A DNA stretch of 64,000 bases. It comes from Cohaesibacter haloalkalitolerans. GTDB lineage: Bacteria > Pseudomonadota > Alphaproteobacteria > Rhizobiales > Cohaesibacteraceae. Each line of letters starts with the position of its first letter. Within the stretch, counting starts at the first letter, position 1. The stretch lies in contig NZ_QNUM01000003.1 in the NCBI RefSeq assembly GCF_003574655.1, positions 558,001-622,000 on the forward strand. Direction: 5' to 3'. Below the pieces are notes generated by a model, which searched no databases, was not told the origin of the DNA, and was given only the letters and a program-made list of their open reading frames with translations. This document shows, one piece after another, positions 1,566-62,996 of this stretch. The translations under genes and the position numbers were made by a program.

Positions 1566-1609
1566 GGCATCAAGGGGTAGTAGTGAAGGCCCAATCACTC
1601 CTTGATGCC
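1566..1609. other. Long perfect hairpin between folK and the flavin reductase
   Basis: A 10-bp perfect inverted repeat (GGCATCAAGG at 1566-1575, CCTTGATGCC at 1600-1609) with a further 5-bp inner pairing (AGTGA and TCACT). It lies about 75 nt upstream of the flavin reductase start. There is no T-run on either side, so a simple terminator is unlikely; it could be an operator, an RNA element or a repeat unit. No known riboswitch class was recognised. Confidence 0.5.
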
Positions 1610-1682
1610 GGTGCATCCGGAAGTCCCCTGTCGGAAAGCGCTTTGCTGCGCCTTCTTCCTCCCTCACACAGGAAAATCGAAA

Positions 1683-2234
1683 ATGACCAAATCCTTGAAG
1701 ATCGCAGGCATCTGCGGCAGCCTGCGCAACAATTCCTATTCTGGAAACCTCCTTGCTGCCATGGCCGACCTTCTGCCTGAAGGGACCGAGTTCAATCGCG
1801 TCGATATCGCAAACATTCCTCTCTACAATCAGGATCTGGATACGGCCAATGGCCCGGAATCTGTATTCGCTGGCCGTGCCTTGGTTGCCGAGAGCGATGC
1901 TGTCATCATCACTCTGCCTGAGTTCAACCACGGGATTCCCGGTGTGCTGAAAAACGCGCTCGACTGGCTCTCCCGCCCGGCCTTCACCGGTTGCTTCACC
2001 GATAAGCCGGTGCTGTTTGCAACCATCGCCCCCGGCCCGCTCGGCGGCGTGCGTGCTCAGGCACAGATGCGCGTTACGCTGTCATGCATGCTGTGCAAAT
2101 TGCTACCGTTGCCGGAAATCGCCGTCACCTTCGCTGCCCAGAAGTTCCCGGAAGGCAAGCTGGTCGATGAACCAACACAAAAGCACATTCAGATGGTGAT
2201 GGACTCGTTCCTCGCAAAAGCCGATCTCGTGTAG
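1683..2234 (+). CDS. NADPH-dependent FMN reductase-like flavoprotein
   Basis: A 183-residue protein of the NAD(P)H-dependent FMN reductase family (flavodoxin-like fold, related to ChrR, YieF and ArsH); members reduce FMN, quinones or metals such as chromate in the cytosol. The start MTKSLKIAGICGSLRNNSYS shows the first strand and the FMN-phosphate loop GSLRNNS; the second FMN loop is the PEFNHGIPGVLKNALDW segment at about residues 79-95. The ATG at 1683 was chosen over an upstream in-frame ATG at 1602 because it has an AGGAAA ribosome site and makes the fold begin where the family does. It converges with the channel gene, whose stop is 2 nt away. Exact substrate unknown. Confidence 0.88.
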   Translation: MTKSLKIAGICGSLRNNSYSGNLLAAMADLLPEGTEFNRVDIANIPLYNQDLDTANGPESVFAGRALVAESDAVIITLPEFNHGIPGVLKNALDWLSRPAFTGCFTDKPVLFATIAPGPLGGVRAQAQMRVTLSCMLCKLLPLPEIAVTFAAQKFPEGKLVDEPTQKHIQMVMDSFLAKADLV

Positions 2235-2236
2235 AT

Positions 2237-2671
2237 CTAAAAATGATGCTTGGCAGCAAACGGTCCATACCGTTTGCTTGCCCCGATCAGATAGGCTGTT
2301 GACCAGCCGATATAGATGAAGCCGGCGATCCCTTCAAGCGCCCCCAGAATGCGCCACTGCTTGGACAGAATGATGTCTCCATAGCCAAGCGTCGAGAAGG
2401 TGACCGTGGAGAAATAGAGCGCTTCGTCAAACGCCTGTAGCGCGCCAACCGTCCAATAGGTCACCGCCCAGACCCAGATCTGCAGAGCGTGGATCACAAA
2501 CACCCCCAGCACCGTGGCCACCATCAGCCACATCTTGCGATAGTGAATGGCAACATTGGACCAGATGCTGGCCAGAATGCGCACCCGGTTGAATATCTCG
2601 ATCATCCCCAGCATCTGAACAAAGACGCAGGCTGTGATCACCAGACAGCCGACAAACAGACTGATCAGCAT
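2237..2671 (-). CDS. Small potassium-channel-like membrane protein (Ion_trans_2 type)
   Basis: A 144-residue inner-membrane protein with the potassium selectivity filter TLGYGD at about residues 94-99, preceded by a pore helix (ALYFSTVTFS) and followed by an inner helix (ALEGIAGFIYIGWSTAYLIG). Two further hydrophobic segments lie at about 2-24 and 48-72, so the layout is roughly two helices, pore loop, last helix. No cytoplasmic gating domain is seen. The start at 2671 has a GGGAGG site 8 nt upstream, better than the in-frame codon 51 nt earlier. Likely forms a tetrameric cation channel; ligand and physiological role are unknown. Confidence 0.82.
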   Translation of the reverse strand: MLISLFVGCLVITACVFVQMLGMIEIFNRVRILASIWSNVAIHYRKMWLMVATVLGVFVIHALQIWVWAVTYWTVGALQAFDEALYFSTVTFSTLGYGDIILSKQWRILGALEGIAGFIYIGWSTAYLIGASKRYGPFAAKHHF

Positions 2672-2773
2672 TCGCCTTACCTCCCAAAGGACAAAGCATC
2701 CGACATTCCGTTGAGCGATCATGAGCGCCGCACGGGAACGGGCACGGGTGCCTGTTTCGCCTCAGCCTAACAA

Positions 2774-2806
2774 CAAAAAGTCGCGCGTCCGTAAAGGACA
2801 CGCGAC
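2774..2806 (-). terminator. Rho-independent terminator after pccB
   Basis: Read on the minus strand, an 11-bp stem (one G-U pair) at 2806-2796 and 2790-2780 with a 5-nt loop is followed by TTTTTGTTG. It begins 43 nt after the pccB stop codon. Confidence 0.85.
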
Positions 2807-2848
2807 AAGATATTCAAATATCGTGATTTCAACAGACAAAAGAACGCA

Positions 2849-4381
2849 TTAGAGCGGGATATTGTCGTGCTTCTTCCACGGGTTCTCAAGCCGCTTGTTG
2901 CGCAACATCCTGAGAGCCCGCGCAATCCGCAGGCGTGTCCGATGCGGCATGATCACCTCGTCGATGAAGCCCCGTTCCGCGGCCACGAAGGGCGACAAAA
3001 ACCGGTCTTCATAATCCTTGGTGTGCTGGGCGATCTTTTCCGGATCATCCAGATCCTTGCGGAATATGATCTCGACCGCCCCCTTCGCCCCCATCACAGC
3101 GATCTGGGCGCTTGGCCAGGCATAGTTGACATCGCCACGCAAATGCTTGGATCCCATGACGTCATAGGCGCCGCCGTAGGCCTTGCGGGTGATGACCGTC
3201 ACCTTGGGAACCGTTGCCTCGGCATAGGCGAACAGCAGTTTGGCGCCATGCTTGATCAGTCCGCCATATTCCTGATCGGTCCCGGGCAGGAAACCCGGCA
3301 CATCCACCAGCGTCACCACCGGTATATCGAAGGCATCGCAGAAGCGGACGAAGCGGGCAGCCTTGCGCGAGCAGTCGCTGTCCAGCACCCCGGCCAACAC
3401 CATCGGCTGGTTGGCAACGATGCCGATGGTCCGCCCTTCCATACGCGCGAAACCGGTGATGATGTTGCGGGCAAAGGCTTCCTGTATCTCGAAGAAATCG
3501 CCCTCGTCAACAACCTTCAGGATCAGTTCCTTCATGTCATAGGGCTTGTTGGGATTGTTCGGGACCAGCGTTTCCAGCGAATGGTCTTCCCGGTCCCACG
3601 GGTCATAGTGATCAAGCACCGGAGATTCGGACAGGTTGTTGGCGGGCAAAAAATCGATCAAACGACGCATCTGGGCCAATGCCTCGATATCGTCATCATA
3701 GGCACCATCGGCAATCGACGACTTGGTGGTGTGCACCGATGCGCCGCCAAGCTGCTCGGACGTCACCTCTTCGTTTGTCACGGTCTTGACCACTTCCGGG
3801 CCGGTCACGAACATGTAGGAGCGGTCGCGGACCATGAAGATGAAATCGGTCATCGCCGGCGAGTAGACATCGCCACCGGCACAAGGCCCCATGATCAGCG
3901 AAATCTGCGGGATGACACCGGATGCCATGACGTTGCGCTGGAACACCTCACCATAGCCGCCCAACGCATCGACGCCCTCCTGAATGCGGGCTCCACCGGC
4001 ATCGAACAGACCGATGATCGGGGCACGGCTTTTCAGCGCCATATCCTGAATCTTGGTGATCTTCTGGGCGTGGGTCTTGGAAAGCGACCCGCCCAATACG
4101 GTGAAATCCTTGGCAAAGATGTAGACGATGCGGCCATTGACCGTGCCCCAGCCGGTCACCACACCATCGCCGGGCATCTTGACCTTTTCCATCCCGAAAT
4201 CGGTGCATGTATGCTGCACATACATGTCGAACTCTTCGAATGACCCCTCGTCAAGAAAGCACTCGATGCGCTCCCGGGCCGTCAGCTTGCCGCGGGCATG
4301 CTGCGCAGCCATACGCTCCTGGCCACCTCCCATTCTGGCCTTTTCGCGACGTCTTTCAAGCTCGGCAATTACACTTTTCAT
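2849..4381 (-). CDS. pccB: Propionyl-CoA (acyl-CoA) carboxylase beta subunit
   Basis: A 510-residue carboxyltransferase subunit that moves the carboxyl group from biotin to propionyl-CoA, giving methylmalonyl-CoA in propionate, odd-chain and branched amino acid breakdown. The crotonase-like double domain is visible: the N half holds [12 protein letters not shown] and [19 protein letters not shown]; the C half holds [13 protein letters not shown], the [11 protein letters not shown] oxyanion segment and [10 protein letters not shown]. Length equals that of PccB proteins. The ATG at 4381 was preferred over an ORF extending to 4489 because the product then begins [12 protein letters not shown] as in the family and has a GAGG site. 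The biotin subunit gene pccA is not adjacent here. Substrate preference (propionyl rather than acetyl) is inferred from overall resemblance. Confidence 0.93.
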
Positions 4382-4606
4382 GGCAAGGACCCTCAGAAAG
4401 AATGATGGTTGGAAAGCCGTGTCCTCCCCGCGGTCAGGTATCGACCGCGCAACACGCCCAACGCAATCCATGTCAACGCAACCCTGCAATATATCAGGAT
4501 TTCTGCTGACCCAAGGGCTAACATAATAAATTTGGAGCCAATAGCTGGCAGATCGGATGAAAGGCTCAGAGAATAGTCTTAAGCTATAAGCAGAAGGTCC
4601 ACCGCC

Positions 4607-5479
4607 TCAGTCCCTAAAGGCCCGGATCACCAGAACGGCGGCATCATATTCGGCCCGGCGGAAAGCCCGGCGCTTGGTGGCCTCTTCATCCTCGCCCCAC
4701 AGCTCGATGTTCCAGTCTTCATCAACCATGGCAGCATTCCATGCAGCATCCGCATGGAGGAACCCGTCCCACACCGCAAAGGCAAGCAGCGCCGACCCGG
4801 TGAGCGTCATGACGCTGTGCACGGCGCCAAGCTGGAATATATCAAGATCACCCCAGAGCGCCCTCAGACGCGCGCCCATGACCGGAGACTGCTCCACAGC
4901 CAGAATGCCGCTGGCCTGCACGAAGCGGCCTCCCAGCGCCTCCTCGGCCCTGTTCAGCACCGGATGCCAGTGATCTCTCTGGCGTTGCACGAGACGCTCC
5001 GGGTGCGTGGCCGGATAGCACAGAAAATCACTGTTGAGATAGGCGACAATCTCGTCGATCATCGCCGGGCGGGCCTCTTCGACACCATCCCGGATAGAAT
5101 TGACAAGACGGGACAGCGGCATGGTGGCCGGATTGATCTCCGTCTCCTGCGCAGCCCACTCGGCAACGAGGGCCTCTGCCAGCGCCCGATTTGGCACGGC
5201 AACAGTCCTCTTGGCCGGGCTTTTCACCTTGCGTCCGTCCAGCAGCACACAATAAAGCAAATTGCCGTCGTTGTCGGTTTCCTCACCGACAGTGACGTCC
5301 TTGTAGAAACGCTTCGGCAGCGGCCTCTTGGTCGCTTCCTTGGAACGCATCATCGGATTGTCGGAGCTGTCCTTCTGGCCAGGGCGGAAATCACCAAACA
5401 GCACGCCATAGGTTTCGCGAGGCTCGCCCTCCGCACCGGTCTGCACCTCGGCACTCTTCTCCGTGTCCTTGTCCGCCAT
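4607..5479 (-). CDS. ATP12-family F1-ATPase assembly chaperone
   Basis: A 290-residue homologue of mitochondrial Atp12, which helps the alpha subunit join the F1 ATP synthase; in bacteria the family is mainly alphaproteobacterial. Typical features: the KRFYKDVTVGEE segment near residue 55, LDGRKVKSPAKR, an AEALVAEWAAQETEINP helix near 105, PLSRLVNSIRDG, and the DFLCYPATHPERLV region near 150. The first 50 residues are charged and low in complexity. Start at 5479 has a GGGGGAGA site 4 nt upstream. It is the last gene of a minus-strand run; 25 nt separate it from the HAD gene. Confidence 0.9.
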   Translation of the reverse strand: MADKDTEKSAEVQTGAEGEPRETYGVLFGDFRPGQKDSSDNPMMRSKEATKRPLPKRFYKDVTVGEETDNDGNLLYCVLLDGRKVKSPAKRTVAVPNRALAEALVAEWAAQETEINPATMPLSRLVNSIRDGVEEARPAMIDEIVAYLNSDFLCYPATHPERLVQRQRDHWHPVLNRAEEALGGRFVQASGILAVEQSPVMGARLRALWGDLDIFQLGAVHSVMTLTGSALLAFAVWDGFLHADAAWNAAMVDEDWNIELWGEDEEATKRRAFRRAEYDAAVLVIRAFRD

Positions 5480-5504
5480 CGGTCTCCCCCAATCAATCCG
5501 TTCG

Positions 5505-6167
5505 TTACAAACCGGCCAGCAGCGCGTGCAGCTCCGGATAATCATCGACAATATGCTGCGCCCCGGCCTGCATCAACGCGTCACTGGTATGATAGCCCCA
5601 ACTGACGCCGATGGTGTTGACCCGGGCGCTGACCGCCATTTCCATGTCGTAGCTCGTATCGCCGATCATGTAGGTATCCGCAGCGGCAACCCCCGTCTCG
5701 CCCATCGCCTGCAGGATCATGCCCGGATGCGGCTTGGAAGGAGCCCTGTCGGCAGTCTGCACCGTGACGAACAGATCGTGCCAGCCGTAGCAGTCGAACA
5801 GATGCAAAACCCCGCGATAGGCCTTGCCGGTGGCAATGCCGAGCAGCACGTCCGGCGCTTTCGCCAGTGCCTCGATCGCGTCCCTGGCTCCATCGTAGAG
5901 ATATTCTTCCGCCTCGCCTCTGGCACGTTTGCCGATGACGAAATCCTTGTAGCTCTCCACCAGCGCACCATTCTGGGCTGCGGTCAGATGGGGCGCCAAC
6001 TTGAAAATCGCTTCCGGCAGTGACAGGCCGATGATCGAACGCGTCTCTTCAGCAGTAGGCGCAGGCAGGCGATGAACACCGAAGGCATGCTCCATGCCTT
6101 CGACAATCGTGTGCTGGCTGTCGACCAGAGTTCCGTCACAGTCGAAAATGAAAAGTTTGAGGCTCAT
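5505..6167 (-). CDS. HAD-superfamily phosphatase (phosphoglycolate phosphatase-like)
   Basis: A 220-residue soluble HAD hydrolase. Motif I DCDGT with the nucleophile Asp is at residues 9-13; motif II is the serine or threonine of LLGIATGK near 117; the lysine of the PSKPHPGMI segment near 149 is motif III; and motif IV is MIGDTSYDMEMA near 167-178. The helical cap between residues 15 and 90 has the form of the Gph or beta-phosphoglucomutase subfamily. A GAGGA site precedes the ATG. It sits between the pseudouridine synthase and ATP12 genes, an arrangement common in Hyphomicrobiales. True substrate is not evident. Confidence 0.9.
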   Translation of the reverse strand: MSLKLFIFDCDGTLVDSQHTIVEGMEHAFGVHRLPAPTAEETRSIIGLSLPEAIFKLAPHLTAAQNGALVESYKDFVIGKRARGEAEEYLYDGARDAIEALAKAPDVLLGIATGKAYRGVLHLFDCYGWHDLFVTVQTADRAPSKPHPGMILQAMGETGVAAADTYMIGDTSYDMEMAVSARVNTIGVSWGYHTSDALMQAGAQHIVDDYPELHALLAGL

Positions 6168-6242
6168 GAGAACGGGTCCTCAGGCTGGAAAAACAGAAAG
6201 GCGAATAGTGGACACGGGCGCTAGACTGCGGAACCGGAACGA

Positions 6243-7256
6243 TCAGTCTTCGGTGCCAAGCTCGTCCTCGATCTCCGGATCATAGGACGCCTCGTCAAAC
6301 CCGAGCAGATTCCAGCTCTGCTGCATGTGCGACGGCAATGGCGCACTGACATCAAGTATTCCACCCTTGGGATGCGGAATGCGGATGCGCCTTGCATGCA
6401 GATGCAGCTTCTTCTGAATGCCGCCGGGGAACTCCCAGTTTTCGATGTTGAAATATTTCGGATCACCGATGATCGGGCATTCCATGTAGGCCGTGTGGAC
6501 GCGCAGCTGATGGGTGCGCCCGGTAACCGGCTTGAGCACCAGCCACGACATCTTCTGCCCGGATGTTTCGACAACCGCATAGTGGGTCACAGCGTGCTGC
6601 GCACCATCATCGCCATGGCGAGCAATCCGCATCCGGTCACCGTCTTCGGCCTGATACTTGGCCAGATAGGTGGAGATACGACCCTGATGGGGCTTTGGCA
6701 CGCCTCGCACCAGCGCCCAGTAGGTTTTCTGTGTCGACCGTTCGCGGAAGGCCTTGGTCAGCGCCATGGCAACCGAGCGCTTGCGGGCAATCACCAGAAC
6801 GCCCGAGGTGTCCCTGTCCAGACGATGGACAAGACGCGGCTTCTGGCCATTCCGATCGCGCAGGGCTTCCAGCATGCCATCGACATGGCGGCTCATGCCC
6901 GAGCCCCCCTGCACGGCCAAGCCTGCCGGCTTGTTGATGACAAACAGATCCTTGTCATCATAGAGCATGATCGACTTGAGAAATTCGCCATCATCATCCG
7001 AGGCCCGCGGCATCGCCCGCTTGGGAGCGGCACTCTGCGACTTCTCATCGGTCGCCAGCGGCGGCACGCGCACTTCCTGCCCCTTCAACAGCCTCACGTT
7101 CGTTTTCACCCGCTTGCCATCGACACGCACCTGCCCTGTGCGCAGCAATTTCTGCAGCTGGCCAAAGGAAAGTCCCGGAAAATGCTCCTTGAACCATCGG
7201 TCCAGACGCAATCCGTCCTCTTCCCCTGTCACTTCGCGAAACTGAATGGTTGCCAT
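6243..7256 (-). CDS. RluA-family (RluC/RluD-like) rRNA pseudouridine synthase
   Basis: A 337-residue enzyme that isomerises uridines in 23S rRNA. An N-terminal S4 RNA-binding domain (RLDRWFKEHFPGLSFGQLQK near residue 15, then KLLRTGQVRVDGKRV) is followed by the catalytic domain with the signature HRLDRDTSGVLVIARK near residue 148, which contains the catalytic aspartate, and later KPVTGRTHQLRVH. Family length is about 310-340. The start at 7256 (MATIQFREVTG) was preferred over the in-frame codon 90 nt upstream because it leaves a 19-nt gap after crcB with a GAGAG site. Which uridines it modifies cannot be told from the sequence. Confidence 0.92.
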   Translation of the reverse strand: MATIQFREVTGEEDGLRLDRWFKEHFPGLSFGQLQKLLRTGQVRVDGKRVKTNVRLLKGQEVRVPPLATDEKSQSAAPKRAMPRASDDDGEFLKSIMLYDDKDLFVINKPAGLAVQGGSGMSRHVDGMLEALRDRNGQKPRLVHRLDRDTSGVLVIARKRSVAMALTKAFRERSTQKTYWALVRGVPKPHQGRISTYLAKYQAEDGDRMRIARHGDDGAQHAVTHYAVVETSGQKMSWLVLKPVTGRTHQLRVHTAYMECPIIGDPKYFNIENWEFPGGIQKKLHLHARRIRIPHPKGGILDVSAPLPSHMQQSWNLLGFDEASYDPEIEDELGTED

Positions 7257-7275
7257 TCGATCTAACTCTCTATTC

Positions 7276-7653
7276 TCAAACCAGCGCGCGGGCTGCCGAC
7301 AGCCCAAAGAAGAGCGCCACAATACCGCCCGCCAGCGAGATTGCAATATAAATCAGCGCCAATCCGGACTGGCCGCGCTCCGTCATTGTAACAATATCAA
7401 GCGAAAAAGTGGAAAAGGTGGTGAAGCCACCCAGAAGGCCGGTGGTCAGCAGCAATCGTATTTCAGTGCTGGCGCTGAAACGCACGGCTAGAAAATGAAT
7501 GAGCAGCCCCATGAAGAAGGACCCGACAATGTTGCAGATCATCGTGCCATAAGGCATGCCGCTGCCGAACGAGCGCAAGGCCGCCAGACCGACCAGATGT
7601 CTGAGGCTGGCCCCGACGGCTCCACCGACCGCCACGAATAGGAATTGGTTCAT
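7276..7653 (-). CDS. crcB: Fluoride channel FluC (CrcB)
   Basis: A 125-residue four-helix membrane protein of the Fluc family, dual-topology dimers that export fluoride. Signatures: GGAVGASLRHLVG at the N-terminus, the asparagine-containing TMICNIVGSFFMGLL helix 2 near residues 38-52, and TGLLGGFTTFSTFSLD near 71-86, which carries the sodium-site and phenylalanine-box residues. Length is as usual. It overlaps rarA by 4 nt (ATGA), so the two are coupled. No fluoride riboswitch is seen upstream, so expression probably follows the housekeeping operon. Confidence 0.94.
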   Translation of the reverse strand: MNQFLFVAVGGAVGASLRHLVGLAALRSFGSGMPYGTMICNIVGSFFMGLLIHFLAVRFSASTEIRLLLTTGLLGGFTTFSTFSLDIVTMTERGQSGLALIYIAISLAGGIVALFFGLSAARALV

Positions 7654-8993
7654 TTGTTTCTTTCCATTCTCAATCTGGACCAGTAATCCAGACGCTTGCG
7701 CAATTCGCGCTCGAACCCGCGTTCAACCGGCTCGTAGAATACCTTCCGTCCCAGCGCTTCGGGGAAATAGTCCTGTCCCGAAAAGGCGTCCGGTTCGTCA
7801 TGGTCATAGCGATAGCCTGCCCCATATCCCTGCTCGGCCATCATCTTGGTGGGGGCATTGAGGATATGTTTGGGCGGCGGCAGGGACCCTCCCGCCTTGG
7901 CGACCTTCATCGCCGTGTGAAAGGCCATGTAGCCCTTGTTCGATTTGGGTGCCGTGGCAAGATAGATCGCCAGTTGCGAGAGTGCATAATAGCCTTCCGG
8001 CGCCCCGATCAGCTGGAATGCCTCCCGTGCAGCCATTGCCTGCACCAGGGCATTGGGATCAGCCAGACCAATGTCTTCGGACGCCATGACCGTCATGCGC
8101 CTGAGGATATATAACGGATCCTCTCCGGCATCAAGCATGCGGCACATATAGTAGAGCGCCGCGTCCGGGTCCGAACCGCGGATAGACTTGTGAAAGGCGG
8201 AAATCAGATTGTAGTGACCCTCGGCCGACTTGTCATAGACCGGCGCCCGGCGCTGCAGGATCCGCCCCAATTGCTCGGGTGTAAAGACCTCGCCCTCTTG
8301 CGCCGCCCGCCAGACTTCCTGCGCCAGCGTCAGCGAGGAGCGCCCGTCGCCGTCAGCCATCCGGATGAGCGCCACACGCGCCTCGTCATCAAGCGGCAAA
8401 GGCTTGTCCAACGCTTCCTCGGCCCGCGACAGAAGCTTGCCGATTGCCTCGTCATCAAGGCTCTGAAAGGTCAGCACCTGCGAGCGCGACAGAAGAGCGG
8501 CGTTGAGTTCGAAGGACGGGTTCTCCGTCGTGGCACCGACCAGCACCACGGTACCGTCTTCCATCACCGGCAGGAAGCTGTCCTGCTGGGCCTTGTTGAA
8601 GCGATGGATCTCATCGACAAACAACAGCGTGGTCTTGCCCATCCGCCGCCGCGCGCGGGCCGCTTCGAACACCTTCTTGAGATCGGAGACGCCAGAAAAG
8701 ATTGCCGATATCTGCTCGAAATGCAGATCCGTCCCATCCGCCAGCAGGCGGGCAACGGTCGTCTTGCCCGTGCCCGGTGGTCCCCAAAGCACAAGGCACC
8801 CCAACGAGCCGCTTTTCAGCATGCGCGTGAGAGTGCCGTCAGGCCCCACCAGATGCTCCTGCCCGACCACGTCTTCAAGCCGCCTCGGTCGGAGCAGATC
8901 AGCAAGAGGCCGGGAAGTTCCCTCCCCGGTCTCGCCATGTCCAGAACCAGAGCTGGAAACCTCCAGCCCTGCATTTTCAAATAGATTGCTCAC
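7650..8993 (-). CDS. rarA: Replication-associated recombination AAA+ ATPase RarA (MgsA)
   Basis: A 447-residue AAA+ protein, equal in length to E. coli RarA, which acts with the clamp loader and SSB at stalled forks. After an N-terminal extension, RPLADLLRPRRLEDVVGQ begins the ATPase domain; Walker A is GPPGTGKTT, Walker B is LLFVDEIHRFNKAQQD, sensor 1 is VGATTENPSFELNAALLSR; the C-terminal domain has the FHKSIRGSDPDAALYYMCRM segment. I chose the GTG at 8993 because it lies 7 nt after the protease stop, with a GAGA site, and gives the family length; the longer frame would intrude about 120 nt into the protease gene. Confidence 0.94.
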   Translation of the reverse strand: MSNLFENAGLEVSSSGSGHGETGEGTSRPLADLLRPRRLEDVVGQEHLVGPDGTLTRMLKSGSLGCLVLWGPPGTGKTTVARLLADGTDLHFEQISAIFSGVSDLKKVFEAARARRRMGKTTLLFVDEIHRFNKAQQDSFLPVMEDGTVVLVGATTENPSFELNAALLSRSQVLTFQSLDDEAIGKLLSRAEEALDKPLPLDDEARVALIRMADGDGRSSLTLAQEVWRAAQEGEVFTPEQLGRILQRRAPVYDKSAEGHYNLISAFHKSIRGSDPDAALYYMCRMLDAGEDPLYILRRMTVMASEDIGLADPNALVQAMAAREAFQLIGAPEGYYALSQLAIYLATAPKSNKGYMAFHTAMKVAKAGGSLPPPKHILNAPTKMMAEQGYGAGYRYDHDEPDAFSGQDYFPEALGRKVFYEPVERGFERELRKRLDYWSRLRMERNK

Positions 8994-55942: not shown

Positions 55943-57316
55943 ATGGACATCAGCTCCGCCAGGCGCACCGGCTCGCATGAGCAAGCCGCCAGAGACCGAG
56001 CTGATGGACGATGGAAGAAGTCAATGGAAGAAGCGTTCGTCAGTTGCCTGAGCGAATATGGCATGGCTCCGGCAAAAGCCTATCAGCAGATAACGGAAGA
56101 ACTGGCCGGAGACGGCAATCCCTATCAGGATCTGGGCAGCTTCACCGCCGTCCGGATGCAGCCGGAAGCCAACCGCCTCATCTGCGACACCCTTGGCAAG
56201 AATCTCGCCAACCAGAATGAATATGGTGAAACGACCAGCATTCACAAAAAGCTTGTCGCCACCATCGCCGACCTTCTCCACGCGCCCGACCCGGCCCATG
56301 CCGCAGGCACCTCCACATCGGGCTCGTCGGAAGCCTGTGCCATAGCCATGCTCATGCACAAGTGGCTCTGGCAGGCAGGAACCACGACCGAGAGCCGAAA
56401 GCCGCGCGGCATTCCCAATATCGTCCTTGGCACCAACGCCCATCTGGTCTGGCGCAAATTTGCCCTCTATCTGGGTGTCGAAGTGCGCGAAGCTCCCTTC
56501 GATGGCATCAACAATTATCCCCTAGGGGCCATGCTGTCGCTCATTGATGAAAACACCATTTGCGTTGTCGCCGTGATGGGCTCCACCTTCTCCGGCTTCT
56601 GCGATCCGGTGAAGGAGATCAATGGCGCCCTGATGGAAATGAACGCCCGCAACGGCTGGAACGTCGGCATTCATGTCGACGGCGCGATCGGCGGCTTCAT
56701 CCTGCCCTTTGTCACCAACAGCCGGAAACCGGTGTGGGATTTTGCCCTGCCGCTGGTGCGCTCCATCAACCTGTCTGGCCACAAGTTCGGACTGGTCTAC
56801 CCCGGTCTCGGCTGGCTCATGCTGCGCGATCAGACCATGATCCCCGAGCATATGAACATGACCGCCAGCTATCTCACCGGTAACACCCAATCCTATGCGA
56901 TTTCCTTCTCGCGCTCGTCATCGCTGGTCATCGCCCAATATTTCAACTTCCTCCATTACGGACGGGCAGGTTATGGCGCAGTGATCGAGAAGTGCCTCAA
57001 GAATGCCCGTCATGTCGCCTCCGGCCTTGAAGCCATGGGCTGTTTCGAACTGATCAGCGACCTCACCCTGCCGGTGATCGCCTTCAGCTTCACCTCGGGT
57101 CTTGAAGGACGGGAAGCGGACTTTACCAGCGCCCTGCGATCAAAAGGCTGGATGCTGCCCTTCTACCAGATGCCCGCAGGCATAGAGTGCAAGGCGATGC
57201 GCATTGTCATCCGCGAAGACATGTCCCGTGAGCGGCTTGAAGCACTACTGACAGATATCGCCGAAGCTGTCGCCTCGCTCTCCCCCCAAACCTGTCTCTA
57301 TCGGCAGGCAGGTTAG
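55943..57316 (+). CDS. gad: Glutamate decarboxylase
   Basis: A 457-residue PLP enzyme that converts glutamate to GABA and CO2, using up a proton. The PLP site is visible: GTSTSGSSEACAIAMLM (phosphate loop, residues 122-138), the HVDGA aspartate (246) that contacts the pyridine nitrogen, and the Schiff-base Lys281 in SINLSGHKFGLVYPGLGW. The N-terminal ITEELAGDGNPYQDLGSFTA and LIDENTICVVAVMGSTFSGF are Gad-like. Start at 55943 has a weak ribosome site; an ATG at 56024 with GGAAGAAG may be the true start and would drop 27 poorly conserved residues. First gene of a four-gene operon; no GadC-type antiporter adjoins it. Closely related decarboxylases acting on other acidic or aromatic amino acids cannot be fully excluded. 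Confidence 0.87.
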   Translation: MDISSARRTGSHEQAARDRADGRWKKSMEEAFVSCLSEYGMAPAKAYQQITEELAGDGNPYQDLGSFTAVRMQPEANRLICDTLGKNLANQNEYGETTSIHKKLVATIADLLHAPDPAHAAGTSTSGSSEACAIAMLMHKWLWQAGTTTESRKPRGIPNIVLGTNAHLVWRKFALYLGVEVREAPFDGINNYPLGAMLSLIDENTICVVAVMGSTFSGFCDPVKEINGALMEMNARNGWNVGIHVDGAIGGFILPFVTNSRKPVWDFALPLVRSINLSGHKFGLVYPGLGWLMLRDQTMIPEHMNMTASYLTGNTQSYAISFSRSSSLVIAQYFNFLHYGRAGYGAVIEKCLKNARHVASGLEAMGCFELISDLTLPVIAFSFTSGLEGREADFTSALRSKGWMLPFYQMPAGIECKAMRIVIREDMSRERLEALLTDIAEAVASLSPQTCLYRQAG

Positions 57317-57326
57317 GAGGCCAGAC

Positions 57327-58391
57327 ATGACAACCCGTTTCCGCTCGCTTATGTCTCATCTGGTTCAGACGCTCGTCGCCCTGCTTCTACTGCTCTCGCC
57401 AACCTGCGCCGCAGAGCCGACGACCGCTCCTGCCTTCAAAGAGGCCACCAAGGCCAGTGTCGCCATCAACATCAACAAGATCTACGAGTTCAACGAACTC
57501 AACGAAACCTATGTCATCGATGGCTATCTGGTTGTTTCCTGGAAGGACAAGGCGCTGGCCGAGCGGATGCGATCAGGCGTGGCTCTTCCCGATATTTACG
57601 AGAATGACGCTATCGATGATCTCAAGGCCGAGGGCATCCGCATTCCCGCCATCGAGTTCATCAATGTCGTCGGTGACCGGAGCGTTGCCAACCGGCAGGT
57701 GGTGACCAGTGCCGATGGCACCGTGCTCTACAACGAGCGCTTTCAGGCCACCTTCTCGACCGCCATGGACTTCCGCAAGTTTCCCTTTGACACACAGAAA
57801 CTGGCCATCGAGCTGGAGTCCTTCTCCTTCGACAAGACCCACTTCGAATTTGTCAACCCGAAGGTCTACCCGGAACTGGTCAATCAGGAGATGCTGGCCG
57901 AGTGGAATATCGTCGACAAACAGGTCGCCGTCACGGACCAGGACTATTCCCACCTCACAGAGGACGGCAGCAAGACCGAGTTTTCCCGCTACAATCTGAC
58001 AATCACCCTTGAGCGCAAGTGCGATTACTACATCTGGAACTTCATGCTGCCGCTAATCCTGATCATCACCTCATCCTGGTGCGTGTTCTGGGTCGATGAT
58101 TTCCTGACCAATATCTCGATCGCCTTCACACTGATGTTGACAGTGGTTGCTTTCACCTTTCAAGCGACCAGCCTGTTGCCCCGGCTGCCCTATACCACCT
58201 TCATGGGCATGCTCACGATCCTCGGTTATCTGAGCATCTTTGCCAGCATGGTGGTCATCATCGCCGCTGAATTGCTGGTCAGGAAATCCGATACGTTCGA
58301 CAAGGCAAGGCTGATGCGGATGTCCCGCTATCTCTATCCGCTGAGCATCGTCCTCATCATTGCCTTCGAAGTCCGCTATTTCAACCTCTAG
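57327..58391 (+). CDS. ELIC-like pentameric ligand-gated ion channel
   Basis: A 354-residue prokaryotic Cys-loop receptor homologue. Signal peptide 1-29; beta-sandwich ligand domain about 30-232 with the pro-loop MDFRKFPFDTQKLAIELESF (residues 147-166), equivalent to the Cys-loop but without the two cysteines; M1 about 234-254; pore helix M2 about 262-283, where AFTLMLTVVAF and, just after, LLPRLPYTT closely match what I recall of ELIC from Dickeya; M3 about 290-316; M4 about 335-352. M3-M4 loop is short, as in bacterial members. An AGGAGG site precedes the ATG, 10 nt after gad. ELIC is a cation channel opened by GABA and primary amines; the same ligand is inferred here from context only. Confidence 0.93.
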   Translation: MTTRFRSLMSHLVQTLVALLLLLSPTCAAEPTTAPAFKEATKASVAININKIYEFNELNETYVIDGYLVVSWKDKALAERMRSGVALPDIYENDAIDDLKAEGIRIPAIEFINVVGDRSVANRQVVTSADGTVLYNERFQATFSTAMDFRKFPFDTQKLAIELESFSFDKTHFEFVNPKVYPELVNQEMLAEWNIVDKQVAVTDQDYSHLTEDGSKTEFSRYNLTITLERKCDYYIWNFMLPLILIITSSWCVFWVDDFLTNISIAFTLMLTVVAFTFQATSLLPRLPYTTFMGMLTILGYLSIFASMVVIIAAELLVRKSDTFDKARLMRMSRYLYPLSIVLIIAFEVRYFNL

Positions 58392-58409
58392 CCCGTTTAG
58401 AATTTGCCC

Positions 58410-59792
58410 ATGGAAATCATCAAGACGCGCCCAAAGCTTGAGGCCATCATCCTCTCAAGCCTTGTGGTTTCCCTGATCTGCTTTCTGGCGTTTCTCATCT
58501 ACAGCAAGTCCGAAGATGTGCTGGAGAAGGAAATCAAGATCGGCCTGCTCTCCAATGTCTCGGCGGCGGCAACAACCATCAACGGCGATCTGCACAGGAC
58601 CTTCACGGCTAACACCGCCCACACCGATCCGGCCTATCTTTCCGCCATCGAGCCGCTGGAACGGATCCGGCAGGCATCCACCAACATCCGCTATATCTAC
58701 ACCAACATCCTCAAGGACGGTCGGGTCTATTTTGTCCTCAACCCGAGCCCCCAGAACGACAATGACGGCGACGGCCAGCCCGACCAACCGCCAGCACTAA
58801 TGGAGCTCTATGACGACGCCGCACCCGAACTGATCACAGCCTTGAAAACCCAGACAACGGTGGTCTCCGACCCCTATACCGACAAATGGGGCACCTTCAT
58901 CAGCGCCTATGCACCCTTCCATGACGCGGAGGGACGCTTTGTCGGCGTACTGGGCATGGACCTGCAGCTCGATGATTTCTACCAGCGGATCTATCCCATC
59001 CGCCTTGCCTTTGAAAAAACCGCCTTCATCGTCATTTTCATCGGCCTGATCATCGGTCTGCTCACATGGCTTTCACGCAAATACACTGTCTGGCTTGCGG
59101 CCTCGAACGGTGCGCTGTGCAAAGAGCTGGCCCAGCACGACCAACGCCTCGCGACAACGACCAAGGGCTTCGTTTCACTTGTTGAAGCCATCGCCGAGCG
59201 GACGAAAGAAGCAGAAACGGTGCGCTGGATCAATGGCTGGCTTGCCTATCTCAAGGTGTCGTCCCAAAAGCCAACCGGTGAAGACAATTTCAATCTCGAC
59301 ACCCTGCTAGAGCGTGTCGCCTCCGCCGCTGTGCTGAAAGGTGGTGTGGAACTTTCAAGAGATGCCACGATCCCGCAAGTCCTTTCGAGCGATCAGGCAT
59401 GCCTTGAAAAGCTGATTGTCGGCCTCGTCAGCCGTTTTCAGACCATCAGCAGGACTGGCAGGATAACCCTTGCGCTTCACCAACAGGCAGAAGGCGTCGG
59501 CGACATCCTGCTGCGCCTGACCATTAGCGCCCCCACGCTGGCCCATCCGCTCTCCGAGGCAGACAAGACACTTGCACCAGACCTCACGGCTGCGGCAAAC
59601 ACTGGCGTGGAAGATCTCGACTTTTTCACCTGCATCAAGATCATCCGCTCAATGGGCGGCAAGGTCCAGTGGCAACAGACGGGGGCAGCAACAGCGCTTG
59701 AGGTTGACCTCACACTCAGCAAGAGCCGCGAAACCCTACTTGATGAAAACAACCTTGCCGCCGACCTGAAAGCCGGGGTGGCAGCCGAATGA
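58410..59792 (+). CDS. Membrane Cache-domain sensor with degenerate histidine-kinase-like C-terminus
   Basis: A 460-residue two-helix protein. Helix 1 (about 12-31) and helix 2 (about 203-222) flank a periplasmic region of about 170 residues with a Cache/PDC-like pattern (IRYIYTNILKDGRVYFVLNP, FISAYAPFHDAEGRFVGVLG, MDLQLDDF). Within it DNDGDGQPD (117-125) has the DxDxDGxxD spacing of a calcium-binding loop. The cytoplasmic half resembles a DHp-ATPase pair (NFNLDTLLERVASAA, then LEKLIVGLVSRFQTISRTGR, then IIRSMGGKVQWQQTGAATAL), but the N-box asparagine, the phospho-acceptor His-Glu and the glycine boxes are not evident. It may be an inactive kinase or signalling scaffold. ATG at 58410 used; TTG 6 nt upstream is an alternative. 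Confidence 0.75.
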   Translation: MEIIKTRPKLEAIILSSLVVSLICFLAFLIYSKSEDVLEKEIKIGLLSNVSAAATTINGDLHRTFTANTAHTDPAYLSAIEPLERIRQASTNIRYIYTNILKDGRVYFVLNPSPQNDNDGDGQPDQPPALMELYDDAAPELITALKTQTTVVSDPYTDKWGTFISAYAPFHDAEGRFVGVLGMDLQLDDFYQRIYPIRLAFEKTAFIVIFIGLIIGLLTWLSRKYTVWLAASNGALCKELAQHDQRLATTTKGFVSLVEAIAERTKEAETVRWINGWLAYLKVSSQKPTGEDNFNLDTLLERVASAAVLKGGVELSRDATIPQVLSSDQACLEKLIVGLVSRFQTISRTGRITLALHQQAEGVGDILLRLTISAPTLAHPLSEADKTLAPDLTAAANTGVEDLDFFTCIKIIRSMGGKVQWQQTGAATALEVDLTLSKSRETLLDENNLAADLKAGVAAE

Positions 59793-60949
59793 AACAGATC
59801 ACACCCTTCATTCTGGTGCTCGCCGCCTTTGGTATTCAGCTCTCCTCAGGCATCAACTACATCACCTTTCCGCTGGTCCTGCAGTCGCAGGGCGTGACCA
59901 ACGCACTGATCGGCTTCGTGATGTCATGCGACATCCTTGCCCTCATCGTCTTTTCCAGCCGCATATCCACGGTCGTCAAGAAATTCGGCGTCATCAACAC
60001 CATCATCATCTGCTCGATCACCCGCTTCGCCGTGGTCTATTTCCTTTCGGGCAACGACATGATCATCGGCTGGATTGGTGGCATGTTTCTCTATGGCCTG
60101 ACCACCAGCGCGCTGCTGGTCGTCCTGCAGACATGGCTCAACATGGTCTCGACCGGCAAGCTGAAGGGGTTGATCATGGGGCTCTATTCATCGGCCCTGT
60201 CATTGGGCGTTGCTCTTGCCCCTCTCCTGCTGCGCCTTACCGACATGCACAGTCACATGCCATTCCTCATGAGCGGGGTCATTTCGCTGGTCGTGCTGCT
60301 CGTCATGCTGACCGTGCTCAAGAGCCGCCCCTCCTTCCATACAGACAAGAAGGCCCGCATCGGCTTCGTGTTCAGGCATGCAAGGTTGATCATGCTCTCG
60401 GCTATCGTTGGCGGCTTCTGTTTCTTTGGCTTGCCGTCGTTCCTCACCATCTATGGCATCAAGAACGGCCTCAAGGCTGAAGATGCCGCGCTGCTGCTGA
60501 CCATGTTCATGCTCGGCAGCGTGACACTCGGCATGCTGGTCAGCACGGCCTCCGCCTTCATAAACCACTATCGTCTGGTCTTCATCTGCGTCTGTACTTC
60601 GGTCTTCTGCGCCTCATTCCTGTCACTGGCCATCTACTCGCACCTGTTGGTGGCTCTGGGGCTGCTCTACCTCTGGGGCGGCTGCATGGGGGGCATCTAC
60701 GCTCTTGGGCTGAACATCATCGGCGAACAGTTCCGGCAGGAAGACCAGATGTCCGCCAACATGACCTATACGCTGATGGACGCCATCGGCGGCATGGTCG
60801 GACTGTGCATCATCGGAACCAGCATGGACTTCATCGGTGCTGAGGGGCTTTCCTACACCATCGTGATCGCCGCCATGGTCTATCTGGTCTATCTCTTCAC
60901 GGCACTGGGGTCCCGCCTCAACACGAAGGAAGCGGATGCAACGATCTGA
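59789..60949 (+). CDS. MFS transporter
   Basis: A 386-residue major facilitator with about twelve hydrophobic segments. The start MKQITPFILVLAAFGIQLSS begins helix 1; the cytosolic loop SRISTVVKKFGVINTII between helices 2 and 3 and MGLYSSALSLGVALAPLLLR in helix 5 fit the fold, and the two halves are separated by a loop (KSRPSFHTDKKARIGF) near residue 180-195. Its ATG overlaps the stop of the Cache-domain gene by 4 nt, so it belongs to the operon. Substrate is unknown; GABA or another amine is suggested by neighbours only. A strong terminator follows. Confidence 0.87.
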   Translation: MKQITPFILVLAAFGIQLSSGINYITFPLVLQSQGVTNALIGFVMSCDILALIVFSSRISTVVKKFGVINTIIICSITRFAVVYFLSGNDMIIGWIGGMFLYGLTTSALLVVLQTWLNMVSTGKLKGLIMGLYSSALSLGVALAPLLLRLTDMHSHMPFLMSGVISLVVLLVMLTVLKSRPSFHTDKKARIGFVFRHARLIMLSAIVGGFCFFGLPSFLTIYGIKNGLKAEDAALLLTMFMLGSVTLGMLVSTASAFINHYRLVFICVCTSVFCASFLSLAIYSHLLVALGLLYLWGGCMGGIYALGLNIIGEQFRQEDQMSANMTYTLMDAIGGMVGLCIIGTSMDFIGAEGLSYTIVIAAMVYLVYLFTALGSRLNTKEADATI

Positions 60950-60987
60950 CCGCACAGCGTGAAGCAGTTGATAAAGTCAGACAGAAC

Positions 60988-61013
60988 AAAGGGGCCTTGC
61001 GGCCCCTTTTTCG
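60988..61013 (+). terminator. Terminator of the gad operon
   Basis: AAAGGGGCC (60988-60996), TTGC loop, GGCCCCTTT (61001-61009), then TTTTCG. It probably also serves the opposing chemotaxis gene on the minus strand. Confidence 0.9.
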
Positions 61014-61039: not shown

Positions 61040-62329
61040 CTAGAGAACCTGATAGGTCTCGTCCAGAGCACTGAGGAACTTGCCTGCATGCTGGCTGAGA
61101 TCATTGGACTGACCGCTCAGATGGCCGGACCGCTCGGAAACCAGTTTTGCCGCCGCCTCGGTTTCCCGTGCTGACCGTTCGACGCTCTGCAGAGCAGTGT
61201 TGATCTTCTCGGCGCCGCTGGAGGCCTGGATCACATTGTCGGCGATTTCCTTGGCCGCTGCTGACTGCTGCTCCACAGCCGTGGCGATAGACGAGGAAAT
61301 GTCTGTTATGTGGGTGATCGTGCCTGCAATTTTCTCGATCGCGGAAACCGTCTGGCTGGTTGACGTCTGGATCGCCGAAACCTGGCCGGAAATTTCCTCG
61401 GTTGCCTTCGCGGTCTGGTTTGCCAGATCCTTCACCTCGGCTGCCACAACAGCAAAGCCGCGCCCGGCTTCACCGGCACGCGCTGCCTCGATCGTGGCGT
61501 TGAGCGCCAGCAGGTTGGTCTGTTCGGCAATTTCCTGAATGAGGCGAATGACATCACCAATGCGGCTTGCCGATGTGGCCAGTTCGCTGACCACATTGGT
61601 TGTTGCCTCAGCCTGTCCCGAGGCCTCGTGCACCACCTGGGTAGAGGTTGAAACCTGCCGCCCGATTTCTTCGATGGACGCGGAAAGCTCTTCGGTTGCG
61701 GCCTGAACAGAGCGCATATTCTCAACGGTCTGATTGGTCAACGAGAACAGCGCCGAGGTTTCACCACTGGTACGGCGGGCATCCCCGATCATCTGCTCGG
61801 CAGTCCCCTGCAAGTCGCAGGCAGCAGTTTCGATAGACTGGACCACATTACCAACACTGTTCTGAAAGGTTCCGGACAGAGCCTGAAACTTTCGGTTCTG
61901 ATTGAATGCGGCTTCACTGTTCTCGGCATCCTGCAACACGGCGCAGGCATAGGGCACGCCGTCAATCACAGCGATTGACACATCGGTCAGAGCACCAAAA
62001 TTGCTGCCATCAGCCTTGTTGTAGATGATGCGACCCGACCACTTGCCGCGCTTGCTGATCGCATCCTCAACCATCCGGGTCATATCCAACACCGGTTTGC
62101 CGCCATATTGTTCCTTGGCCAGAAGCTGTTCAACCCGACGGCGCTGAACAGCCTCAAGAGACGGAAAGCCGGATGCCGATAGAAAGGCCTTGTTGGCGTA
62201 GACGATACCTTGGCGACCGGGCGCCAGACAATTCATGTAAACTCCGGATGGAGATTCACCCATGGCAATAGCCACCAGATCATTCATGGAAGGTCCGGTC
62301 GCTGCCTTCTTTTTCCCTAGCCCAAACAT
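61040..62329 (-). CDS. Soluble methyl-accepting chemotaxis protein with PAS domain
   Basis: A 429-residue cytosolic chemoreceptor with no membrane helix. Residues about 15-135 form a PAS-like sensor ([20 protein letters not shown], then AFLSASGF, later [20 protein letters not shown]); a coiled region follows and the MA signalling domain peaks at the hairpin [20 protein letters not shown], then [18 protein letters not shown], with the [20 protein letters not shown]-type helices behind it. ATG at 62329 starts [10 protein letters not shown] and has a GGGAGTAGAG site; an in-frame codon 51 nt upstream is less likely. No che genes are adjacent. PAS-type soluble receptors often sense redox or energy state through FAD or heme, but the cofactor cannot be read here. 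Confidence 0.92.
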
Positions 62330-62996
62330 CGCTCTACTCCCGCGCAACCGCGCACAATCGGATTGTTTGGGTGCAACCATGCAACTGCACCATTTGACAA
62401 CAGGTTAACCATGAAGTCGCAAGTTTTGCGATAAACAGAAAAGTACAAAACCATGCCGCGCGTTCTTGACGCAGCGAGTTTTGGCAAGAAAGAGAAAGTC
62501 TGAATGTGACGCTACGAAGCGTCGACACACCTAACGGCAGCGGGAATGCGGCAAGGAAAGTGGCTCCGACCAAACCTATCGGTGTTTGCCCGGCGCTGAT
62601 AACACGATGGGGTGCACCCGGCACTCTCGCAGAACAAGAGCATCAAAGAGGCACCCCATCACCAGTCCCCCCACGGGAACTCTTTAATCCTGATCCGGCT
62701 TTAAAAGGCAGGCCAAACACCAAGCTTGTTCAAGCCCAATCTGGCATGCACAAACTTGCAAAGCCCACTTTTCTGCAAATTCAGCTAGGATTATTAGCAA
62801 AAGAAGGTCAACCGCACTAGTACATTTAACAATACAACTCTAACACAGAATTTGTGCAAAGCGCCCCAAAAGGCTAGAGACTGATGAAATTTCAGTCATT
62901 TGGTCATATATTATGCGGATCCATGCCTGCTCAGAAAGCCGTGCAAAGATAGAGGGAAATGGAGATCGCTATCAGGAAACCAGACTCCGAAGAGCC
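62330..62996. other. 667-nt spacer with hairpins
   Basis: A plus-strand frame of about 100 codons (62506-62820) lacks a ribosome site and any recognisable product, so I do not call it. Two inverted repeats occur: GACGCT/AGCGTC near 62510-62525 and GATGGGGTGC/GCACCCCATC (62606-62615, 62651-62660). The chemotaxis gene promoter should lie near 62340-62420. Confidence 0.5.

Follow-up and report, generated by a model that had tools for sequence, protein, structure and literature searches.

A cassette of four genes, encoding a glutamate decarboxylase (GAD)-family enzyme, a channel subunit related to the pentameric ligand-gated ion channel (pLGIC) ELIC, a membrane sensor and a major facilitator superfamily (MFS) transporter, was analyzed in a stretch of 64,000 nucleotides (nt) from Cohaesibacter haloalkalitolerans (contig NZ_QNUM01000003.1, positions 558,001 to 622,000), hereafter the window. 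We read the four genes as one functional unit which would make, move and read a primary amine, that is, a self-made signal, and the probability of this reading was put at about 0.6. Comparison of related loci suggested that the enzyme, and hence probably the ligand, was exchanged between lineages, and the most novel point is that the partner enzyme of ELIC itself is probably not a GAD.

The natural role and ligand of bacterial pLGICs matter, since ELIC is a standard structural model of gamma-aminobutyric acid (GABA)-A and nicotinic receptors, and its biological ligand was stated to be not known in the available text of PMC3119659. In the same 2011 paper, a putative decarboxylase annotated as GAD was reported in the operon of ELIC, and GABA was proposed as a candidate natural ligand. 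The initial annotation of the window had held that no system of this make-up was described, a claim which this earlier report overturns. Within a partial coverage of the literature, no later paper re-examining the neighbour of ELIC was found, and genomic-context terms were absent from the text of PMC4795631. The cassette turns the ligand question into a direct test, in which the product of the neighbouring enzyme is tried on the neighbouring channel.

The four plus-strand open reading frames were recovered where the initial annotation had placed them, with spacings of 10 nt, 18 nt and then a 4-nt overlap (Table 1). An AGGAG motif overlapped the GAD stop codon before the first gap, the channel-sensor gap ended at the sensor ATG at 58410 with an alternative TTG start at 58404 also open, and the sensor and MFS genes shared ATGA. 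The arrangement was compared over 17 distinct ELIC-like loci, namely the window, L018, L019 (the same DNA as L003 and L034), L020, L035 (the same as L060), L057, L036 (also G687), L037, L038, L040, L053 to L056, L039, L058 and L059; L037 and L040 both came from Vibrio penaeicida, so not every locus counts as independent. Decarboxylase, channel, sensor and MFS genes were contiguous on one strand in 15 of the 17 loci, the decarboxylase directly adjoined the channel in 16, and an MFS homologue was found at 16. At L035, channel, sensor and MFS genes were contiguous and the GAD gene, in the same orientation, lay 6.2 kb upstream and was separated from them by three genes. At L057, the GAD and channel genes overlapped by 14 nt, and neither the sensor nor the MFS gene had a homologue in the 13 kb covered. 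The gene order was retained at 40% protein identity from Pseudomonadota to Flavobacteriaceae-group genomes. Among distant pLGIC loci (25-30% identity), 0 of 13 had a homologue of either decarboxylase, of the sensor or of the MFS protein in about 6 kb at E 1e-3. The recurrence, taken with these controls, argues that the arrangement is not due to chance. Neighbours assembled by chance and spread by horizontal transfer, with no joint function, would suit a channel that is rare and patchy; this explanation is very improbable in view of the order held at such divergence, the position kept by the enzyme when its subfamily was exchanged, and the controls. The order of the neighbourhood, whose search in other genomes had been suggested with the initial annotation, held up, and the subfamily of the partner enzyme differed between lineages.

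Based on scores against the GAD model TIGR01788 (cut-off 380.4 bits), the ELIC-like loci were split by enzyme. The enzymes of six of the 17 loci, from Cohaesibacter and two Flavobacteriaceae-group genomes, were of GAD type, all six scoring 404.0-478.5 bits, while those of the other 11, from the Dickeya and Vibrio groups, were not, all 11 scoring 15.6-34.3 bits and the three Dickeya-group enzymes alone 17.1-27.2 bits. The same 11 enzymes gave 169.9-205.2 bits on the histidine decarboxylase model, below its cut-off of 305; as both cut-offs were missed, family assignment does not settle the substrate of the Dickeya/Vibrio partner. The enzyme of Dickeya undicola, the sole partner of this type compared with solved structures, was nearest to the L-methionine decarboxylase 7cif (E 8.2e-64), followed by serine and histidine decarboxylases, and was the only PF00282 gene found in its genome. 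The Dickeya evidence consisted of D. undicola and two genomes of its family, and D. dadantii, from which ELIC comes, did not appear among the named records. Since all 11 Dickeya/Vibrio-group partners fell off the GAD model, the partner of ELIC is probably not a GAD, the GAD label behind the GABA proposal is probably wrong, and GABA is probably not the own ligand of ELIC. We infer that the partner of ELIC yields an amine from a neutral amino acid. The enzyme swap puts in question the natural signal assumed for ELIC, a widely studied model channel which favours short unbranched primary amines, with a half-maximal effective concentration (EC50) of 0.365 mM for cysteamine and 0.446 mM for aminopropane (PMC3119659, available text).

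The GAD-family identity given to the window enzyme by the initial annotation was confirmed. The enzyme passed TIGR01788 with 414.3 bits, its best match in the PDB was Arabidopsis GAD1 (3hbx, E 3.3e-92), and Lys276, His275, Asp243, Ala245, Thr212, Ser126, Ser127 and Arg422 were kept, the numbering being that of E. coli GadB (gadB of L085). Two PF00282 genes were present in the genome of the window, the other one lying on contig C19. The catalytic residues were retained in the alignment of all six channel-linked GADs, which were compared with eight GADs picked by hand from 30 listed, out of 56 matched plasmid records. Thr62 of GadB was replaced by Ser in 6/6 channel-linked GADs (the window included), Gln163 by His in 6/6, and Asp86 by Asn in five of the six (again the window included), Asp being present in all eight other GADs. 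His465 had no aligned counterpart in five of the six, as in a Streptomyces control GAD, and the last 30 residues contained no His in the window, L018 and L020 enzymes.

With Asn86 and a His-less tail, the window GAD resembled the engineered E. coli variant GadB D86N-H465A, whose activity persists at pH 7-8 and which did not use Asp or Gln (PMC12961736, available text); it may be regarded as a naturally occurring equivalent of such an engineered neutral-pH enzyme. From this likeness we infer that the window enzyme produces GABA at the pH of the cytoplasm, and that it does not serve in acid stress. Glutamine, considered as a substrate in view of the change of Asp86 to Asn, was rejected on the behaviour of the published double variant. 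A module of pH homeostasis or acid resistance like GadB/GadC, in which decarboxylation uses protons, the MFS protein exchanges substrate and product, and the channel only reports the product, would explain why a GAD-family enzyme and a transporter stand in one unit. It is quite improbable here, because the window enzyme has neither the acid-tuning Asp86 nor the aligned C-terminal His465, and its transporter belongs to MFS_1 rather than to the GadC-type antiporters, as found beside gadB in L085.

The channel was identified as ELIC-like, in agreement with the initial annotation. It matched ELIC 8d67 by phmmer (E 2.3e-71, residues 40-353), with homology over the full length, covering the ligand-binding domain and the four membrane helices, and it scored 56.5 bits on PF02931 (cut-off 26); two NCBIfam models stayed under their cut-offs (NF033918, 123 of 500 bits; TIGR00860, 118 of 280 bits). 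The N-terminus looked signal-peptide-like by eye, and this was the one channel gene in the genome at E 0.001. Tyr38, Glu77, Ile79, Asn103, Glu131, Phe133 and Tyr175 of ELIC were identical in all 17 aligned channels, and position 188 was Phe or Tyr. The window channel retained Phe188 and thus the whole primary-amine pocket (Glu77, Glu131, Phe133, Tyr175, Phe188, Tyr38 and Asn103).

Differences from ELIC were found at Phe19 (Asn in the window channel), Arg91 (Gln) and the pore residue Glu229 (Thr). Position 91 was Gln in 6/6 GAD-type channels and Arg in 11/11 others, and position 19 was Asn, Gln or His in the GAD-type channels versus Ser or Phe in the others. In ELIC, the EC50 of cysteamine fell to 0.087 mM in R91A and rose above 10 mM in F19A (PMC3119659, available text). 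At the position of Glu229, the four Cohaesibacter channels had Thr, the L060 channel Asp and the L057 channel Asn; with Thr in the pore region of the window (58058-58190), ion selectivity may differ from that of ELIC. In the channel tree, rooted with 13 outgroup channels and with long branches flagged, the Vibrio/Dickeya-type channels formed one clade (support 99/99), so the residue differences between the channels make up one evolutionary contrast. The GAD-type channels needed 1-2 changes, and the two Flavobacteriaceae-group branches were long and unsure. The idea that enzyme type and position 91 had coevolved repeatedly was rejected, as the tree held only one change for the Dickeya/Vibrio type.

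The constant Gln91 of the GAD-type channels, together with the replacements at Thr62, Gln163 and Asp86 of their enzymes, raises the alternative that the window enzyme is GAD-like with another substrate, and that its product fits Gln91, Asn103 and Asn19 of the channel better than GABA. We consider this unlikely: the enzyme passed the GAD model, GadB D86N-H465A was inactive on Gln and Asp in the available text of PMC12961736, and Ser62 and His163 occur in Arabidopsis GAD1 and in the Streptomyces GAD, respectively.

The sensor scored 29.5 bits on PF22673 (cut-off 27) and 26.2 of 45 on dCache_1, below the cut-off. It was built of an N-terminal helix, one periplasmic PDC/Cache-type domain, a second membrane helix and a cytoplasmic half. 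Across eight sensors, 78 residues were invariant, 75 of them within the first 223 residues and only 3 in the cytoplasmic half. The periplasmic domain carried the invariant loop NPSPQND..(D/N)DG.PD.PPALM; in the window, this loop reads NPSPQNDNDGDGQPDQPPALM (58740-58800) and was nearly invariant in the eight sensors. We take its NPSPQND and the following D, G, P, D and PPALM to resemble a calcium-binding loop.

The sensor was modelled by AlphaFold2 from an alignment of eight sequences only, and the model had a mean predicted local distance difference test (pLDDT) score of 77 and a predicted template modelling (pTM) score of 0.44. By Foldseek, its second half resembled histidine kinases and contained a fold of the dimerization and histidine phosphotransfer (DHp) plus catalytic (CA) type, many of the top matches having a large root-mean-square deviation. 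Compact matches were obtained to RetS kinase regions (TM-score by target 0.53-0.61) and to the ETR1 catalytic domain (TM-score by target 0.76). The model of a Dickeya sensor also matched kinases, more weakly, with a low-confidence stretch at 249-291. No Pfam match to HisKA or HATPase_c was detected in the sensor at E 1 or below, a sequence search of the cytoplasmic half against the PDB returned no kinase or anything else, and the NCBIfam hints of RcsD (E 0.00036) and WalK (E 0.09) were both below cut-off. We read the protein, from its model, as a receptor with a degenerate kinase-like cytoplasmic half. The Cache sensor of the initial annotation was therefore right as to the PDC-type periplasmic domain, which is single, and left out the kinase-like half. 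The transporter scored 113.6 bits on MFS_1 (PF07690).

As judged by sequence, the cassette combines a cytoplasmic enzyme dependent on pyridoxal phosphate (PLP), a channel and a sensor whose ligand domain and PDC-type domain, respectively, lie in the periplasm, and an MFS protein, and these parts have stayed linked in distant bacteria. The MFS protein would take the product of the decarboxylase, which in Cohaesibacter is most likely GABA formed at neutral pH, across the inner membrane. On the periplasmic side the amine, self-made or from neighbouring cells or a host, would open the channel and cations would enter. The same amine would be bound by the sensor, whose kinase-like half, with its catalytic features lost, may act by binding a partner. 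In the Dickeya/Vibrio relatives, the same channel-sensor-MFS set would be served by the other decarboxylase subfamily, and the signal there would probably be an amine of a neutral amino acid, not GABA. A bolder form of this proposal, which we hold tentatively and at less than even odds, is that the transmitter was switched through the enzyme, with GABA from a neutral-pH GAD in the Cohaesibacter and Flavobacteriaceae groups and, in Vibrio and Dickeya, an amine derived from a neutral amino acid, and that positions 19 and 91 of the channel and the sensor were retuned. In that case the true ligand of ELIC would not be GABA but what its methionine/serine/histidine-decarboxylase-like neighbour makes, and the genes would form a portable "synapse in one cassette".

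Several observations weigh against a self-made signal, or against GABA as that signal. GABA is weak on ELIC (EC50 2.4 mM; PMC3119659, available text). At Phe19, the residue whose change to Ala raised the EC50 beyond 10 mM, the window channel departs from ELIC, and its Gln instead of Arg at position 91 is the reverse of a simple carboxylate match for GABA; a carboxylate-arginine match was rejected for the window channel on this ground. The channel tree shows one change of enzyme type, and the accompanying change at position 91 therefore counts as one event only. The neutral-pH signature is uneven, Asp86 being retained in the L057 GAD and a tail His, unaligned with His465, being present in the L019 and L060 GADs. 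The sensor and MFS genes are missing in L057 and are thus not obligatory, and the conservation of the Cache and MFS genes equally fits uptake.

Uptake leads to another explanation, in which outside amines or amino acids are scavenged and sensed: the channel and the sensor would detect environmental (host) amines, the MFS protein would import substrate, the decarboxylase would be metabolic, and no self-made signal would exist. MFS transport may run in either direction, bacterial pLGICs were proposed as chemoreceptors (PMC549065, available text), plant-derived amines were pointed to in the available text of PMC3119659, and the Dickeya cassettes adjoin pectate-lyase-like genes. However, the most constant neighbour of the channel is a decarboxylase and not a catabolic enzyme for its product, and the conserved set includes no amine-degrading gene, which makes this explanation rather unlikely. 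Production of the signal by the cell itself remains our preferred reading.

ELIC-like channels were rare in whole-genome searches, which covered parts of the taxonomic groups. In the family of the window, 4 of 20 genomes had one, all of the same genus. Of the 297 genomes sampled in the order, 10 matched at E 1e-20, two of the genus of the window closely and the other eight at 25-30% identity, and the class sample gave 4 of 385, the window included. A strict alignment-based search found 5/247 in the family of a Vibrio locus, 2/299 in that of a Flavobacteriaceae locus and 3/149 in that of a Dickeya locus, and the phylum samples of those loci gave 1/339 and 1/247, the centre genome only. A scan of named contigs yielded 7 loci (C. 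marisflavi, an uncultured Flavobacteriaceae bacterium, four Vibrio and D. undicola) and was far from exhaustive, since only two peptide patterns were used. No channel relative was found in viral contigs (one pattern match only), and no channel was found in plasmids. Around some cassettes, further genes were noted by eye. The L035 insert between GAD and channel (1579-7826) comprised genes for a repeat protein of 1112 aa whose C-terminus was gliding/type-IX-like, for a PorP/SprF-like protein and for one resembling OmpA, all on the same strand with short gaps. Pectate-lyase-like genes flanked the Dickeya-group cassettes (L039, 1281-5547; L059, 1364-4099).

Sites without the cassette were also found: in two genomes, the genes that flank it in the window enclosed no cassette. 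On contig C30 of C. marisflavi, these ATP-binding cassette (ABC)-transporter and chemoreceptor genes stood 12 bases apart, and this species carried an intact cassette elsewhere, on contig C19; in G013, the same genes stood 139 bases apart. In a third genome, G012, the 3' boundary was seen again at 60970, adjoining a deletion that removed the ABC genes. G012 also held a 5'-truncated MFS remnant (L083, 3497-4423, minus strand; residues ~155-378, 86% identity), a decayed cassette with none of the other cassette genes in the 8 kb. Apart from this remnant, a DNA search of 7 channel-less Cohaesibacter genomes gave, among the matches listed, no piece of the GAD, channel or sensor genes. Its intact presence elsewhere in C. 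marisflavi and its absence from these genomes fit a cassette that behaves as a unit. The GC content was 57.0% in the cassette and 59.6% and 57.2% in the flanking genes, and a foreign base composition of the cassette was rejected for want of such a signal. A gene for a PAS-containing methyl-accepting chemotaxis protein (61040-62380, minus strand) adjoined the cassette, and the same neighbour was found at the cassette-free sites.

The "strong terminator" of the initial annotation was present as a stem-loop. It lies in flanking DNA that aligns with the cassette-free C. marisflavi site, and for this reason it is probably older than the cassette; five terminator-like stems were observed in the region versus 4.2 expected in shuffles. 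A consensus scan of the region found no plus-strand sigma-70-like promoter.

Table 1. Features of the cassette and its borders, in window positions
Feature	Positions	Strand	Basis
GAD-family PLP enzyme, 457 aa	55943-57316	+	TIGR01788, GadB alignment, PDB match
ELIC-like pentameric ligand-gated channel subunit, 354 aa	57327-58391	+	phmmer to ELIC, 17-channel alignment
Membrane sensor, 460 aa	58410-59792	+	Pfam, alignment, AlphaFold2 and Foldseek, invariant-residue count
MFS transporter, 386 aa	59789-60949	+	PF07690; homologue in 16/17 loci
Terminator-like stem-loop	60988-61009	+	stem scan and alignment with the cassette-free site
DNA missing from the cassette-free site on C. marisflavi contig C30	55735-60976		DNA alignment

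Compared with known systems, the module is, on these sequence data, real, conserved and partly known. A pLGIC of Rhodopseudomonas adjoins a stand-alone Cache gene (PMC549065), so that a separate sensor gene beside the channel is shared with the window; no decarboxylase or MFS protein was mentioned there, and the word decarboxylase did not occur in the available text of that paper. The fold of RetS-type histidine-kinase regions was shared by the cytoplasmic half of the sensor, which differed in having no HisKA or HATPase_c sequence match and only 3 of the 78 invariant residues. GadB/GadC acid resistance also joins a glutamate decarboxylase to a transporter, whereas in the window the transporter family is different, Asp86 and the aligned His465 are missing, and a channel and a sensor are added. 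The closest system is the ELIC operon of Dickeya dadantii (Erwinia chrysanthemi), in which, as in the window, a decarboxylase stands beside an ELIC-type channel in one predicted operon, and in the Dickeya-group genomes the sensor and MFS genes follow in the same order. The window differs from it in an enzyme of another subfamily, a GAD at 414 bits, and in channel positions 19, 91 and pore Glu229. Against this background, the conserved four-gene set, the two enzyme subfamilies, the neutral-pH GAD signature and the cassette-free sites look new.

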